In this document: in pieces, positions 2,907-64,000 of the stretch
Numbering within the stretch: the stretch's first letter is position 1
How the letters are laid out: every line of letters begins with the position of its first letter
NCBI GenBank assembly: GCA_950022495.1
Contig: CATLLJ010000001.1
Coordinates: 1 to 64,000 of the forward strand
Origin: an uncultured bacterium
GTDB taxonomy: Bacteria > Cyanobacteriota > Vampirovibrionia > Gastranaerophilales > Gastranaerophilaceae
DNA length: 64,000 nt
Reading direction: 5' to 3'
Program-made: the position numbers and the translations under genes
Notes under the pieces: model-generated
The model's database searches: none
What the model saw: only the letters and a program-made list of their open reading frames with translations
Told to the model about the DNA's origin: nothing

Positions 2907-3704
2907 TTATGCAGATTTCTTTTCAGCGTTATCGTTTTTATGAACGAATTTGTTACTTATCCAAGTTGCAATAGGGGTAACGGCTACCGGCGATAAGAAT
3001 CTATAAACAGTACCAAATACTACTAATGATTTAAGTATTTGTAAACCTCTAAGATCTTTTTCTAATTCCGGAGCTTTTACATGTTTTTCAATATAACTTA
3101 GAACTGTAGCTGGTCTATATTTTGTACCTTTTGCAATGGTTCCGTTAGCAATACCTTTTTGATGAGCTTCTTTATGTTTTCTAGCAAATTCTGCAAAGTT
3201 TTTAGCTAAATCTTTGCCGTCTTCGCCAAGGTATTTTTTAGCATATTTTAAAGAAACATTCTTTTCCCATGTGCCATCTAATGCATCATCAATAAGATAA
3301 GAACCAACAGTTGACATCAAGAAAGTTAACCCCTGGTTAATTGCAAGAGTTTTCTTTCTATCTTCGTCTAATTGATTATTTCTTAATGTTTGAGTCATAT
3401 ACATGCCGGAAATAATAACTGAACCTGCAACCTGCATGTGATTTACTATACGACCTAATCTATCACCTTGATTTGCTAGAATTTTTGCTAATTTTGATTG
3501 ATATAATCTTGCGGTATAATTTTTAGCTAACCAGTCAGTAGATTTATCAACAGCTTTTTTGAACGGATCTAAGAATTTAGAATTTGTTGCCGCTGTAAAT
3601 GTCGGCTGAGAATAAGCTGAACCTGCAAATTTTCTTGCACCGGCAGATAAGGTATTATTTCTATATGTTTGATTATTGTAATTTGTATTTAACGTAATAT
3701 TCAT
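2907..3704 (-). CDS. Hypothetical membrane-associated protein with N-terminal F-T motif
   Basis: This 265-residue protein has an Asn/Thr-rich N-terminus with the short motif QPTFTA near residue 35. Lys-rich amphipathic helices follow, with hydrophobic patches near residues 90-105, 120-145 and 225-250. There is no classical signal peptide. The ATG overlaps the stop of the upstream gene (TAATG), so the two are translationally coupled and probably act together. I do not recognise the family. The related layout of its neighbour (motif, then paired hydrophobic segments) suggests two members of one lineage-specific class. Confidence 0.6.
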   Translation of the reverse strand: MNITLNTNYNNQTYRNNTLSAGARKFAGSAYSQPTFTAATNSKFLDPFKKAVDKSTDWLAKNYTARLYQSKLAKILANQGDRLGRIVNHMQVAGSVIISGMYMTQTLRNNQLDEDRKKTLAINQGLTFLMSTVGSYLIDDALDGTWEKNVSLKYAKKYLGEDGKDLAKNFAEFARKHKEAHQKGIANGTIAKGTKYRPATVLSYIEKHVKAPELEKDLRGLQILKSLVVFGTVYRFLSPVAVTPIATWISNKFVHKNDNAEKKSA

Positions 3705-4510
3705 TATTTAACACCTCCTGCAAATTTAGATAAATCAGGTTTAACTGGAGATGCCACATTTTGAACAGGTTCCTGAACAGGAGCTGCAGGGGCCTTTGCT
3801 TTTTTCTCTATACCAAATACGTATTTCAAAATCGGAGGAATTAAAGCAACTGTCAACATTGCTTTAACAATACCGAATACAAATACATCCGGTGCCATAT
3901 TCAAGGCTTTAGATACTTTTTCTAATGTTGACTTATCTATTCCGGTAAGTTTTCCGTCTTTACTGAATTTACCAAAAATATTTAAGAATTTTTCATTTAC
4001 GAATTTTGCATCTTTAAGAAGTTCTTCTTTAGTAATCTTTCCAACATTTTCTGGTGTAAGTTTTTCAATTACTTTTTCTGCATCTTTCATAAATTTCTTT
4101 GCACTTTTACCCAGCGGATACATAACTACATTTGCAAATCCGAAACCGATTATTCCGGAAGCAATTGAGTGACCTGATGCATAAATTTTGTCATCCTTAT
4201 CTTTTTTACCAGGTAATGACATGATTGCAAGAGGTCTAAATCCTGCTGCTAACACAAGAGCTACGAGGTTTTGTGCAATTACGGTATGATCATTACAAAG
4301 ATCAATCATCATCTTCAAAAATCCCTTAGAAGACTTAGCGGCAGCTCCGTTTAAACCCGTAAAGCTACCGCTATAATAATATCCTCTATTCATATTTTTA
4401 ATGTCACACAAATCCGCACTCTTTTTCATACTCTCCAGCCCATACTTTGGCTTATGTTTGAGTTTGTTCCCTGAAGTGGGATAATTTTTTTTAATTGAGT
4501 CTATATTCAT
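3704..4510 (-). CDS. Hypothetical membrane-associated protein with N-terminal SFTG motif
   Basis: This 268-residue protein carries the motif SGSFTGLNG around residues 47-55 after a Lys/Tyr-rich leader. Hydrophobic segments (VIAQNLVALVLAAGFRPL, SGIIGFGFANVVMYPLG and AMLTVALIPPILKYVFG) suggest two or three membrane contacts. The C-terminal tail is Pro/Ala/Val-rich. It is the first gene of a two-gene operon. The same F-T-G style motif recurs in unrelated proteins of this window. Function unknown. Confidence 0.6.
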   Translation of the reverse strand: MNIDSIKKNYPTSGNKLKHKPKYGLESMKKSADLCDIKNMNRGYYYSGSFTGLNGAAAKSSKGFLKMMIDLCNDHTVIAQNLVALVLAAGFRPLAIMSLPGKKDKDDKIYASGHSIASGIIGFGFANVVMYPLGKSAKKFMKDAEKVIEKLTPENVGKITKEELLKDAKFVNEKFLNIFGKFSKDGKLTGIDKSTLEKVSKALNMAPDVFVFGIVKAMLTVALIPPILKYVFGIEKKAKAPAAPVQEPVQNVASPVKPDLSKFAGGVK

Positions 4511-4754
4511 TTCGCACCACTTAAAATAATTAACTGCTACACATTCATTTTAAATCAAAGAATATATTTTTTTGCTACATCATTACAAAAATGTTACAAT
4601 TAAATGTACTTTATACAACTTATTCCAAATATACCTATTTAGACTTTGTAAAGTAATTTTTACCAGCAAAAAAAGTAGTACAGTACCCACTCCGGCGAGG
4701 AGTTGAAAAAAAAGGTTTTTTGCATTATCTTTAGTGTAAGAAGGGGCTATATAA
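4511..4754. other. Divergent intergenic region
   Basis: AT-rich spacer between the operon ending at 2907 and the HEAT repeat gene. It must hold promoters in both directions, but no clean -35/-10 pair stands out. The only strong signal is the purine-rich site AAGAAGGGG before the GTG at 4755. Confidence 0.35.
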
Positions 4755-13400: not shown

Positions 13401-14108
13401 ATGAAAAAAGGTTTTACATTAGCCGAAGTTTTGATTACTATCGGCATAATTGGAATTGTCGCAGCAATCACTATACCTTCAATTATTACAGCATATAGAA
13501 GAATTGCATACCCGATACAATTAAAAGCCGTCTATAGTAAACTTTTAGTTGCACAAAAAACATTAAATGATGAATATGGGACACCGGATGAGTGGCAATA
13601 TACAAACTACATAACAGACAAGGACGATAGTCTAAATGTTGAAATATTTAATAGATATGCAACAGAACTTTCTGCGTTATCCACTAAAGATAGAGGTGTT
13701 TATAAATATTTAGAAGCAGGATTATCGCCATCCGCCTTACAACTAAATGGAAAGGCTGCAAAGGGAGTTCCTGGATGGGCTACAGGATATTATATTTTTG
13801 AAGGAGGACACTGCAGAAGTATGCAATTAAAAAGCGGTGCTACAATCGTTGTGTATTTCGCAAATGGAACATCCGGTGCTGTATTATGGCCTTTGATTAA
13901 TAAAAAAATGTATGCTGCATTCATGATTGATATAAATGGTTCTTCAAAACCAAATATTATTGGAAGGGATATATTTGCATTCGGATTAAAAGGCGGTTCA
14001 AGTTCAATAGTTCCATACATGGATGATACTTCGGATTGTAACAAATTGGGTGCCGGCTTATCCTGCTCTAGAAAAATAATTGAAGATGACTGGAAAATGA
14101 ATTATTAA
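13401..14108 (+). CDS. Type IV prepilin-like secreted protein
   Basis: The 235-residue product begins MKKGFTLAEVLITIGIIGIVAAITIPSII, a class III signal: basic leader, G before F-T-L-A-E, then a hydrophobic helix, cut by a prepilin peptidase. The mature globular part (residues 30-235) has Cys pairs (GGHCRS, DTSDCNK, GLSCSRK) and aromatic/Gly-rich beta segments, as in minor pseudopilins. A strong AAGGAG site precedes the ATG. It is a single gene between a perfect promoter and a terminator, next to an XRE regulator. It could be a minor pilin or a type II secretion pseudopilin. Confidence 0.85.
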   Translation: MKKGFTLAEVLITIGIIGIVAAITIPSIITAYRRIAYPIQLKAVYSKLLVAQKTLNDEYGTPDEWQYTNYITDKDDSLNVEIFNRYATELSALSTKDRGVYKYLEAGLSPSALQLNGKAAKGVPGWATGYYIFEGGHCRSMQLKSGATIVVYFANGTSGAVLWPLINKKMYAAFMIDINGSSKPNIIGRDIFAFGLKGGSSSIVPYMDDTSDCNKLGAGLSCSRKIIEDDWKMNY

Positions 14109-27363: not shown

Positions 27364-28116
27364 CTACTCTAAATCTGAATTAAAGTAGCCGGCAATATAT
27401 TTAAAAGTTTTTAGTGCAGTATCTATATCCATTGTTTGAGGTTGATTTTTACGTTTTTCTTTAATCGTTATTGTATTATTTTTCAAATCCACATTTTGTA
27501 TAATATAAACATGCCATCTTCTACCGTCAAACTTTTTCTGACCGCTTCCGATAATAAAACTGTAATCTTTCTCGGCTTCCATTTGTTTAAAAAGTTTCAT
27601 AACTTCATCTTTATAACCCTTTAAATTCCAATTAAAATCTTGTTCGGCGATTACTCGAGGTTTCACTCCGGTTAAAGTCTCCATAAAATGAGATGTTAAA
27701 TTATTCTCAAATTTATATTTTTTAAATATTTCACTAATTCTACATATCCACGGTTTTGATTTATGTTTCTGCTCATATTGAGCGACAGAAATATCTAAAC
27801 TTCTAATTATATCATTATTCTGCATCGAATAAAGTTCCTCGTACTGAGCAATAGCTTTATCCGCAGGCACTGAATACTTTTCTCGATCTCCCGTTGGTGA
27901 ATAAAAATAACAGTTTATCTGATTAGGATTATTATCATCCCGTTCAATCTGATTTTTTAAAATCTTTCGTCCATTTTGAGTCTGTGCTAGAGTTTCAATA
28001 GTAGACATCAGATAACAATCACTTAGATGTTGCGTTGCAGTTTTAAATGATTCAATATCGTTATCCGTTATTGAACCTTTAAACATTATATTAAAATTAG
28101 CAAAACCTACCTTCAC
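27364..28116 (-). CDS. Calpain-like cysteine peptidase homologue
   Basis: The 250-residue protein resembles the calpain catalytic domain. It has the Cys box TQHLSDCYLMSTIETLAQ (C34), the central KPWICRISEIFKKYK corresponding to the W...EKA.AK.. helix, LTSHFMETLTG, and the His box GRRWHVYIIQNVDLKNNTITIKEK (H202). The usual Asn-Pro-Trp after the His strand is replaced by KEKRKN, so it may use a Cys-His dyad or be inactive. The N-terminus carries the MFKG motif at 11-14. The start is GTG with no clear ribosome site. The family call is by eye. Confidence 0.6.
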   Translation of the reverse strand: MKVGFANFNIMFKGSITDNDIESFKTATQHLSDCYLMSTIETLAQTQNGRKILKNQIERDDNNPNQINCYFYSPTGDREKYSVPADKAIAQYEELYSMQNNDIIRSLDISVAQYEQKHKSKPWICRISEIFKKYKFENNLTSHFMETLTGVKPRVIAEQDFNWNLKGYKDEVMKLFKQMEAEKDYSFIIGSGQKKFDGRRWHVYIIQNVDLKNNTITIKEKRKNQPQTMDIDTALKTFKYIAGYFNSDLE

Positions 28117-29313: not shown

Positions 29314-29721
29314 TTATTTATTTAAAAGTTTTTCACTCATTTGAGTAAGATCATCCATAATTTGTTTAAGGGAATTATTATCCTTTAAAAATTTGAGGAT
29401 GTCATCCTTTGAACCATATATTATCGGACGTTTCACTTCTATTTGCATTGTTGGATGAAGCATTAATATTTCAAATGTATGTTTTGCTTTATTTTCTGCG
29501 TCTTTTGAAATATTAAAAGCAATAGCTCTACAATACAACTGTTTATCTTTATTTACTAAATGTTCATTAATTGGACGATAATATGTAGAGTCCTTAACCT
29601 CACATTCTGCACGATTGTAGATTTCCTTTAGAATTTGAGCAAGTTTTTTTTCTGTTGTCATAGACAAATCTTTTCCCTTGACTTTAGCTGACTTGAAATT
29701 TAGATTGTTTAATTTTATCAT
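29314..29721 (-). CDS. Hypothetical partner of the RelA/SpoT-like gene
   Basis: This 135-residue protein has no signal peptide or membrane segment. Its N-terminus (IKLNNLNFKSAKVKG) resembles the short F-K-G/S motif of other unknown proteins in the window; the rest is a charged alpha/beta domain ending in an amphipathic helix. It follows the RelA/SpoT-like gene by 16 bases on the same strand and is probably co-transcribed. It could be a regulator or immunity partner for that protein, but nothing in the sequence proves it. Confidence 0.55.
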   Translation of the reverse strand: MIKLNNLNFKSAKVKGKDLSMTTEKKLAQILKEIYNRAECEVKDSTYYRPINEHLVNKDKQLYCRAIAFNISKDAENKAKHTFEILMLHPTMQIEVKRPIIYGSKDDILKFLKDNNSLKQIMDDLTQMSEKLLNK

Positions 29722-44480: not shown

Positions 44481-45032
44481 ATGTCAACAATTGAAAGACT
44501 AAATCAATTCAGCCATCGTATATTTAATACGAGCCAAAATGAACAATCAACTTCAAGAACTAGCAATCCTTTTGCCGCTTCAAATTTCCAAAAAAATATT
44601 TTAACAGAAGATGTTTTTGAATCAAGCAAGGCAAAACAAAATGATAAAGTAAGTTTCACAGGAAATTTAACTGCAAGTTCTAAGAGAATATATTCTACAT
44701 TTGTAGGTTCTATCAATGATATGGGCAGCAAATTCTATGAAGGTATTGAATCTATAAAAGCTATATATGGAAGAGTTAAAGACAGCGTAATCAATACTTG
44801 GAATAAAATTCAAGAAATCGGCAACAAAGAAGTTAACGTTAATATCAACTTAGACGGTGCTAGAGAACTTCTAACAAAAGAATATCATATTAAAGATATT
44901 GCATCAGCTATCGTTGGCGGCAAAAACAGAGAAATCACAAGAATGTCAAAAATGGACCCTCATTCAGAAGTAAAACCAATGTTCCAACAAGCTTTAGAAG
45001 CCCTGGAAGCAGATATGGTTATGGTTGCGTAG
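44481..45032 (+). CDS. Hypothetical protein with N-terminal SFTG motif
   Basis: This 183-residue protein has a Ser/Asn/Gln-rich first 50 residues ending in DKVSFTGNLTASSKR (residues 50-64), then helical segments (FVGSINDMGSKFYEGIESIKAIYGRVKDSVINTWNKIQEIG) and a mixed C-terminal half. No signal peptide or membrane helix. A GAGAGAGG ribosome site precedes the ATG. It is followed after 11 bases by a small HEAT-like gene, likely the same transcript. The SFTG motif matches that of the unknown protein at 3704-4510. Function unknown. Confidence 0.6.
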   Translation: MSTIERLNQFSHRIFNTSQNEQSTSRTSNPFAASNFQKNILTEDVFESSKAKQNDKVSFTGNLTASSKRIYSTFVGSINDMGSKFYEGIESIKAIYGRVKDSVINTWNKIQEIGNKEVNVNINLDGARELLTKEYHIKDIASAIVGGKNREITRMSKMDPHSEVKPMFQQALEALEADMVMVA

Positions 45033-57829: not shown

Positions 57830-57919
57830 AAATTGTTAACAAAGTAACAAAATTTTTAAATTTTGTGTTTTAGAAATTAGATAACAACCCAAAAGCCTAC
57901 ACTAATATAATGATAAAAC

Positions 57920-58018: not shown

Positions 58019-58747
58019 ATGGCAGTATTACCGGTTAGTAGTGTTAGGTTTAATAATAGCACCACAGTAAACTTTGGACGTCGGGGACATAAAGAAACAG
58101 AAAATCAAGAAAACAATTATAAATCACAAAAAGCAAGCGGAATGGTAACCGTACCTGCGGCATTGCTTCTGGCATTAGCAACAAGTGCGATAAATTCAAG
58201 CCAGCCTGTTGCAGCACAACCAACAGAAAGCGAAACCAGAGTAGAAATGGTTTCAACTGTAGGCCAAGCTTCTAGAAGTAGTTCTGCACCACAATTTAAA
58301 GATGTATTTCACAAACTTCCATATTATTCCGAATATCTTAGCGAAATGCGAATGAAAATGTCATTACCAGTAAAAGCTAATGGAAAAAATTATAATCTTG
58401 TATTTGCCAGTTTAGGAAAAACAAATAATTTTGATGTTGAAAATATTTATTTTATACAGGATGGTTTTAAAAACAAAAAATCTTATGTCCAGCCGCCAAA
58501 AGTAACATCCTTAGTTTATCATAACTTAGGAGACTCAAATAAAGATTTTTGTGGTGTAGCGATTGAATCTTATACTCCAAATGAAGATGGAAGTTACAGC
58601 AAAGTTACCTACGAAACCCGTATTGATGATGACACTGCTAATCTACTAATTGACTTAATTGCAGGAGATTCAAAATATAGAAACTTAGCAGGATTAGAAA
58701 TGGTAGAAACAACATCTCCAACCGTTAGAAAAACGAAATTTTATTAA
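58019..58747 (+). CDS. Hypothetical protein with N-terminal F-G motif and one hydrophobic segment
   Basis: This 242-residue protein has a leader VRFNNSTTVNFGRRGHKE, then a hydrophobic stretch at residues 40-62 (GMVTVPAALLLALATSAINSS) that looks like a membrane anchor or late signal, then a soluble domain of about 170 residues with no recognised family. A strong promoter and an AGGAG ribosome site suggest good expression. It precedes the 1211-residue gene by 85 bases and may be linked in function. Confidence 0.6.
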   Translation: MAVLPVSSVRFNNSTTVNFGRRGHKETENQENNYKSQKASGMVTVPAALLLALATSAINSSQPVAAQPTESETRVEMVSTVGQASRSSSAPQFKDVFHKLPYYSEYLSEMRMKMSLPVKANGKNYNLVFASLGKTNNFDVENIYFIQDGFKNKKSYVQPPKVTSLVYHNLGDSNKDFCGVAIESYTPNEDGSYSKVTYETRIDDDTANLLIDLIAGDSKYRNLAGLEMVETTSPTVRKTKFY

Positions 58748-62735: not shown

Positions 62736-64000
62736 TTATAAAACAATCGGCCAATAAAAATCTACAAGATATGATGCAGCATCAAAAGGATGTGATAAAA
62801 ACTTCAACTCTTTTGACTGTTTTATCTGAGTATATGTAGGCACATCAATTTTTGAAGAACCTTCAATATAGCGTAAATTATACATATTATAGAGAAGCTT
62901 TTCGCATTTTGGAGAAATAAATAAGCAGATTTCTCCCTTTGCATTTTTAACTTTAGCATTAAAAGCGGCTATCCTGTTTTTTATTGGAGGATTAAATGCC
63001 TTGATTCTAATTTCGACATTATAACCGAAAGATTCAAGCTTTTTCTTGATAATTACATAGTTTGTATATTCGCTCATACAACTTCTGTTATCACCGGAAG
63101 CATCACCGTTAATAATAATTTTACCCTTATGATTTGGATATCTGTTATAGAATTCATCACAAGTTTTAGAGGTTGTTGTATTTTCAATAACAAGTTCATC
63201 AAAATAAAAAACCTTGTTTTCAGTTTTATGAGCCAGAACCCAGGCCATAGGGTCAACGTTAAAATCACAGCTTATGTGAACATCCAAATCAGGTTGATAC
63301 TTGATATCTCTAACATTTTCATTAGTAAAATCTTTGACAACAAGATTTTCATTATAATTTCCGGTCTTACCAAGAACAAATGTTTCATAATAACTTTTGT
63401 CATACAACTTTTTAAGTTCTTCACAAAAACCCTCCGGCAAATAGATATTTTGAGTTGTTGGTGCACAAATCAAACGATAATTTGGCGGCGGATTGATAAA
63501 AAAAGTTTTATAAATCCACCCTTGCTGAATTTCGGGATTAGTGTGCCCGAAAATTCTATAGGTAAAATTTTTCCATTCTGGAAGAATTTTCTGCCTCATT
63601 CTTGCAAGAAGCATCTTGAAAGTATCGTAAGGGATATCCGACATTTCTTCAATTTCAACAAATCCCAGATTTAATGACTTTAACTTGTTAGGTTCATCAA
63701 AATGCCTGAAAAGGATTTCTGAATTGTTGCGAAAAATAAGCTTCTGTTCAGAACTCATCCATTTGTAATCTACACCATCAACCAGCTTCATACTATCAAG
63801 ATGTTCAAAATAACTCTGAAGTGTGGTATCCCTGACAAGAGTATAAGTTTGAGCACCCACAAGCCCTCTGATACCATTAAACTTTAAAGCAAGAAGTATC
63901 CCGAGTAAAGATCCGGCAAAAGTTTTACCGGACCCATACCCGCCCTGATAGACAGCCACATCAAGGGAATAATTATGAGGGATTTCCAGAAATTCACGCT
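62736..64000 (-). CDS. Phage terminase large subunit (5' end beyond window)
   Basis: The frame is open to the window end (upstream codons read FLEIPHNYSLDVAVYQ), so the GTG given by the track is not the start. It has Walker A GGYGSGKTFAGSLLG, a helicase-like Walker B region GFVEIEEMSDIP, and an RNase H-like nuclease domain with DFNVDPMAWVLAH, KIIINGDASGDN and LSHPFDAASYLVDFYWP holding the acidic residues. Such proteins pump and cut DNA into phage heads. The rest of the element lies to the right. Confidence 0.88.
   Translation of the reverse strand, partial: REFLEIPHNYSLDVAVYQGGYGSGKTFAGSLLGILLALKFNGIRGLVGAQTYTLVRDTTLQSYFEHLDSMKLVDGVDYKWMSSEQKLIFRNNSEILFRHFDEPNKLKSLNLGFVEIEEMSDIPYDTFKMLLARMRQKILPEWKNFTYRIFGHTNPEIQQGWIYKTFFINPPPNYRLICAPTTQNIYLPEGFCEELKKLYDKSYYETFVLGKTGNYNENLVVKDFTNENVRDIKYQPDLDVHISCDFNVDPMAWVLAHKTENKVFYFDELVIENTTTSKTCDEFYNRYPNHKGKIIINGDASGDNRSCMSEYTNYVIIKKKLESFGYNVEIRIKAFNPPIKNRIAAFNAKVKNAKGEICLFISPKCEKLLYNMYNLRYIEGSSKIDVPTYTQIKQSKELKFLSHPFDAASYLVDFYWPIVL

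Follow-up and report, generated by a model that had tools for sequence, protein, structure and literature searches.

Bacterial export signals that lack an N-terminal hydrophobic core belong chiefly to type III systems, and in the known systems the cytoplasmic half of FlhA receives cargo. Early flagellar subunits carry a gate recognition motif of the form F-x-x-x-hydrophobic, and the targeting peptides of bacterial microcompartments are short, N-terminal and usually amphipathic helices. Export of early flagellar subunits combines an N-terminal hydrophobic signal with gate recognition (PMC8983047), and type III substrates of Pseudomonas syringae show an N-terminal composition pattern and common promoter boxes (PMC3338616). 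Type III effectors are further described by the features of T3SEpp (PMC7406222) and by a chaperone-binding beta-motif or CesT-extension motif (PMC6114900). Here we describe a short N-terminal tag centered on a phenylalanine, found in both proteins of the two-gene operon g0005-g0004 and in many other proteins of a Candidatus Gastranaerophilales genome (1.93 Mb, 22 contigs). The operon lies in the window, the first 64 kb of contig 1, and the tag has the appearance of a label, so far undescribed, that addresses proteins to a sorting or export route.

Gastranaerophilales, which are non-photosynthetic gut relatives of cyanobacteria, are widespread and for the most part uncultured; no known family accounts for the majority of the tagged proteins that we scanned. 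Our preferred explanation, to which we give slightly less than an even chance, is that the tag is a short linear sorting signal that ends a disordered, Asn/Ser/Gln-rich extension on a co-regulated Gastranaerophilales set, the likeliest route being a type III apparatus. The open-licence literature yielded no description of the tag or of a regulon linked to it, nor of any substrate of type III secretion in Gastranaerophilales or Melainabacteria.

The tag in g0005-g0004 and across the genome

The first gene of the operon, g0005 (3704..4510, minus strand), encodes a tagged protein of 268 aa with helical and hydrophobic segments and no known family; orthologues in 25 loci support the reading frame and confirm its start. 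The tag of g0005, SGSFTGLNG (4346..4372, minus strand), occupies residues 47-55 with the Phe at residue 50, and is recognized by its interchange among orthologues, in which SGSFTGLN is exchanged for SSVSFGSAA, GAVTFGSAA or NISFGG. Such interchange would be characteristic of selection acting on a short linear motif. The second gene, g0004 (2907..3704, minus strand), overlaps the stop of g0005 and encodes a tagged protein of 265 aa, also supported by orthologues, with the tag QPTFTAA (3588..3608, minus strand). Across the first 119 residues of 28 g0004 orthologues, Met 1 and the tag Phe (F36) are the only invariant columns, and the linker varies in length and sequence. Both genes were found in 24 genomes of the same genus and, with weaker matches, in further families of the order, the orthologous loci coming from Candidatus Gastranaerophilales and Melainabacteria in ruminant and other gut samples. 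A C-terminal motif, KP-x-[IM]-x-KF-[AL]-GG-x-K, occurs in g0005 and some g0004 orthologues, and in locus L201 the two genes read as a single frame.

Structure prediction places the tag near the end of a disordered extension. The g0005 model (mean pLDDT 58) is disordered at residues 1-60 with helices from residue 56, and the g0004 model (pTM 0.53) is disordered at residues 1-42 and then helical, so that in both the first predicted helix begins a few residues past the tag, with low to moderate confidence. The g0005 model was too weak for a fold search, and the best match to the g0004 model (E 0.19) was not meaningful. The position of the Phe at the border of predicted disorder and folded part in both models, together with the free linker length and the small residue after the motif, would also suit a processing or turnover site, with the extension cut at or near F-[TGK]-[GSA] or a protease recruited there. 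We consider this improbable, as the Phe is followed by variable residues (T, G, K, Q, N); additionally, no dedicated protease turned up, although no search was aimed at one.

A sequence-only reading of the window had proposed that an F-[TK]-G motif near the N-terminus is shared by six otherwise unrelated proteins, and all six reading frames and their motifs are present, those at 3704-4510, 2907-3704, 27364-28116 and 29314-29721 on the minus strand. Genome-wide analysis covered 1,902,368 of 1,927,403 bases (98.7%), taken as 20-kb stretches, in which a home-made caller (hexamer score and Shine-Dalgarno) gave 1876 genes, some with uncertain start sites. The 1493 called proteins without a hydrophobic N-terminus were used for motif counts. 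Within residues 2-70, [NST]FTG occurs in 19 of these 1493 proteins against 2.6 +/- 1.6 in 200 shuffles (maximum 7; z 10.3), while residues 101-169 of the same proteins hold one occurrence and the C-terminal 69 residues two, so that the motif is above chance and has a clear positional preference. In the same residue range, 64 proteins contain the wider [NST]F[TKG][GSA], against 29.9 +/- 5.0 after shuffling. The form first proposed was thus real but too narrow: a motif fit with the Phe fixed gave [NS]-[NK]-[VIP]-[SN]-F-[TGK]-[GSA] in about 80 to 120 proteins, roughly 1 in 20 of the proteome, and the pattern was not reproduced on shuffled or internal windows. This fit replaced an unconstrained one, which slid to hydrophobic N-termini and type IV pilin-like starts.

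From the count and motif-fit lists, 82 tag carriers were curated by hand; percentages on these carriers are therefore descriptive, and the out-of-sample tests weigh more. The tag Phe is found between residues 6 and 74 (median 19), Ile or Val occupies residue 3 in 54% of tagged proteins against 15% of 1413 other proteins, and residues 4-12 are rich in Asn, Ser and Gln with almost no Glu. The absence of a signal peptide, also claimed in the sequence-only reading, holds for 80 of the 82 carriers, which have no hydrophobic stretch in residues 1-45 as a Sec/Tat h-region would require; it is less clear for the frame at 58019-58747, where a hydrophobic stretch directly follows the tag. The out-of-sample set comprised 943 proteins from 80 other Gastranaerophilales loci, with relatives of g0004 and g0005 removed and the tag and promoter matrices frozen beforehand from this genome; some of these loci are related, so its p-values are somewhat optimistic. 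In this set 3.9% of proteins carry an N-terminal tag and 0.7% an internal one (p = 2e-5), and small samples from other families of the class (f8, f10, f11, f12, f14) gave 2 tags in 215 proteins (p = 0.03 against the 80 loci); f8, which lacks FlhA, contributed none from its 26 proteins. DNA-pattern counts of the motif in 117 genomes of the class gave ratios that track base composition, and no conclusion on distribution is drawn from such counts.

Neither chance nor a signal peptide nor a shared domain can account for the motif. An artefact of composition in an AT-rich, Asn/Ser-rich genome, which the roughly twofold enrichment of the broad F[TK]G might suggest, is already refuted here and retains a negligible probability. 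The broad form is weakly enriched because specificity resides in the flanks, shuffling the N-termini themselves leaves far fewer motifs (z 6 to 10), the Phe is invariant in g0004 orthologues, and the promoter element to which the tag is linked does not depend on protein composition.

Tagged enzymes and a promoter-like element

In five tagged enzymes the alignment with the untagged paralogue starts only after the tag. Adenylate kinase g0480 matches untagged g0761 with 57% identity from residue 42 on and keeps its P-loop; the same layout is seen in dephospho-CoA kinase (g1355 and g0952), a metallophosphoesterase (g0302 and g1084), a hydrolase (g0956 and g1255) and the M16 peptidase g0928 and its relatives. 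Further tagged proteins are CheR-like, GNAT-like, phosphatase-like or HNH proteins, and the majority have no family; nine tagged proteins including g0005 gave no NCBIfam family above cut-off, and one compared with PDB sequences gave no match. In g0928 (C5:74385-77222) a second VSFTGIN stands between the two M16 halves in addition to the N-terminal tag, as if two tagged genes had been fused.

Simple homology of the tagged proteins, with the F-motif as first strand of a domain that they share in diverged form, is very improbable. A few tagged families are indeed paralogous (g0089-g0091, g1637/g1638, g0198/g1812), but the tagged proteins carry unrelated domains (ADK, CoaE, M16, metallophosphoesterase, hydrolase, CheR, GNAT, HNH), the segment is absent from the untagged paralogues, and mean column identity across 55 tagged proteins is 8%.

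The tag is accompanied by a promoter-like element composed of TAGCAAAA, a spacer of about 17 bp and TANAAT, usually 35-67 bp before the ATG. In front of g0005 it reads TAGCAAAA...TTTGATTTAAAATGAA (4544..4577, minus strand; score 14.0), 67 bp before the ATG, and the same-genus orthologues examined retain it at 60-73 bp upstream. Within 120 bp upstream, TAGCAAAA occurs at 19 of 80 tagged genes where 2.0 were expected. An element scoring above 10 precedes 46 of 82 tagged genes and 41 of 1794 others, a figure that is partly by construction since the element was fitted on tagged genes; many of the 41 encode tag-like N-termini absent from the curated list. Out of sample, the element precedes 30% of the tagged genes from the 80 loci and 2.4% of their other genes (odds ratio 17, p = 7e-9). 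It is not universal, as g0045 (described below) lacks it and g0004 is the second gene of its operon. Tagged genes are mostly not close behind another gene.

We read the tagged set as a co-regulated group of what appear to be about 100 mostly lineage-specific proteins, which tag and promoter element unite into a single testable unit. The shared element and the tagged enzymes with untagged paralogues together argue for a sorting signal of a co-regulated set. The suggestion that the motif is a shared tag for sorting or processing, serving an export or assembly route peculiar to the lineage, is thus well supported as regards a common, lineage-specific tag, given its enrichment, position, orthologues, promoter-like element and tagged second enzyme copies; the export machine is a candidate, and one genome discussed below speaks against it.

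Candidate export machinery and intracellular alternatives

Under our preferred explanation, the extension (aliphatic residue 3, few acids, Asn/Ser/Gln-rich) and a strand-like [VIP]-[SN]-F-[TGK]-[GSA] would be read by a receptor that diverts tagged proteins from the location of their untagged paralogues. The likeliest route would be a flagellum-derived type III export apparatus retained without flagellin, the F-motif docking on an export-gate or chaperone component such as a separate protein made of the cytoplasmic half of FlhA. Genes for such machinery do occur together with the tag in this genome: FlhA, FlhB with NPTH, FliF, FliH, FliM/N, FliO, FliP and rod proteins are present, as are a FliI-like ATPase, by its Walker motif, and FliQ and FliR, which were recognized only by reading the sequence. 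Residues 134-492 of g1304 (C8:45083-46561; 492 aa) match only the cytoplasmic half of FlhA, the half that receives cargo elsewhere, which makes this protein the candidate reader. Full-length FlhA was found in all 24 same-genus relatives, and FlhA and the separate half both occur in all or nearly all of 40 relatives. Flagellin was not found in this genome and is absent from 24 of 25 genomes of the genus; it is present in nearly all relatives from other families. Seven proteins (g0156, g0321, g0450, g0571, g1075, g1441, g1655) start with MG[LM]xxSQ[AG]R or similar and may be rod/hook-like substrates of the export apparatus; g0450 and g0571 had no convincing match in Pfam.

The N-terminal composition of the tagged proteins fits type III substrates. 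By rules patterned after the P. syringae ones (PMC3338616), an aliphatic residue or Pro at position 3 or 4 is found in 75% of tagged proteins against 44% of others, no Asp or Glu in the first 12 residues in 62% against 24%, and a first 50 residues rich in Ser, Asn, Gln and Thr in 70% against 15%. All three hold jointly for 35% of tagged proteins and 3% of others (p = 1e-18), and the no-acid and Ser/Asn/Gln/Thr rules replicate out of sample.

Several results weigh against export by this apparatus. Out of sample, the aliphatic or Pro rule did not replicate (46% against 45%), and a match to compositional rules of this kind does not prove type III secretion (PMC3338616). The apparatus genes reach scores of less than 5 for the promoter-like element, so no co-regulation with the tagged set was seen. 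Such co-regulation is common for type III substrates, but not required. As cargo for export, adenylate kinase and dephospho-CoA kinase would be unusual. FlhA-bearing families outside the order showed no tag excess in small samples, from which it follows that the apparatus is not sufficient. Finally, G126, a same-genus genome that is 99% complete, has no FliF and no full-length FlhA match, and its orthologues of g0005 and g0004 (locus L210, identical contig coordinates on CALUWC010000006.1) keep SFTG tags. G126 has a match to the FlhA half, and the missing genes could be due to one gap in the assembly, flhA and fliF being neighbours.

The tags retained in G126 without FliF or FlhA keep cytosolic sorting a serious rival, in which the tag would be a sorting or docking motif for an intracellular target (a scaffold, membrane patch, compartment or chaperone) and not for export. 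The tagged adenylate kinase and dephospho-CoA kinase, normally cytosolic, appear active from their intact P-loops, and the export step is so far one that we infer. The type III-like N-terminal composition counts against intracellular sorting, and neither a scaffold gene nor one for a compartment shell came to light, although no systematic search for such genes was made. We regard this alternative as rather unlikely. The most novel form of the export proposal is likewise rather unlikely: in these non-photosynthetic bacteria the export half of a lost flagellum may have become a secretion system whose dedicated, co-regulated substrates number about 100, bear a new bipartite N-terminal signal and include re-addressed second copies of central enzymes such as adenylate kinase. 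Published genome papers have interpreted an incomplete flagellar set as reduction or motility loss (PMC3787301, PMC5877343), in one case as ongoing genome reduction (Di Rienzi 2013, PMC3787301). The tagged set offers a reason why bacteria without flagellin retain a flagellar export apparatus.

Further tagged proteins and comparison with known systems

Among the six examples first named in the window, g0005, g0004 and g0045 are secure, the first two by orthologues, and the other three are plausible single cases. The gene g0045 (44481..45032, plus strand) encodes a protein of 183 aa with no assigned function, supported by orthologues in all 24 same-genus genomes (46-73% identity over nearly the full length); its tag is KVSFTGN (44646..44666, plus strand; Phe 59; motif-fit posterior 0.99), and no promoter element was found upstream. 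Probable tagged proteins, judged in part from their sequences, are g0029 (27364..28116, minus strand), with a GTG start giving VKVGFANFNIMFKGS, the tag IMFKGS (28072..28089, minus strand) and a weak promoter element that scores only 8.3, and g0031 (29314..29721, minus strand; 135 aa; posterior 0.96) with the tag LNFKSA (29686..29703, minus strand). A further probable case is g0057 (58019..58747, plus strand; 242 aa; posterior 0.89), in which the tag VNFGRRG (58067..58087, plus strand) precedes the hydrophobic stretch and a possible promoter-like element (57845..57878, plus strand; score 9.8) lies unusually far upstream (174 bp). Elsewhere in the window, 62736-63959 resembles, by eye, a large terminase subunit (P-loop GGYGSGKT), perhaps at a prophage edge. 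Dozens of small proteins genome-wide begin with the type IV pilin-like start FTLAEVLITLGIIGVVAAMTIP, for example at window 13401-14108.

Like the type III effectors of P. syringae, the tagged proteins begin with a disordered, acid-poor and polar stretch in which an aliphatic residue stands close to position 3, share a promoter element, are in many cases lineage-specific and are mostly encoded at some distance from any preceding gene. Unlike those effectors, the set has a discrete F-[TGK]-[GSA] motif, favors Asn rather than Ser and includes housekeeping-like kinases, and translocation is here only inferred. The two-part layout of a short aliphatic start, a linker and a Phe motif recalls early flagellar subunits, although the hydrophobic position of the tag is F-2 and its linker may be just a few residues; the gate recognition motif itself was considered and rejected, since F+4 is hydrophobic in 22% of tagged proteins against 29% of background. 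In layout the tag recalls the chaperone-binding beta-motif and CesT-extension motif, being short, possibly strand-forming and located in the first 100 residues past the extreme N-terminus; unlike for those motifs, no cognate chaperone was identified for the tag. Microcompartment targeting peptides resemble the tag in being added to second enzyme copies without a signal peptide, but the tag stretch, unlike theirs, is predicted to be disordered.
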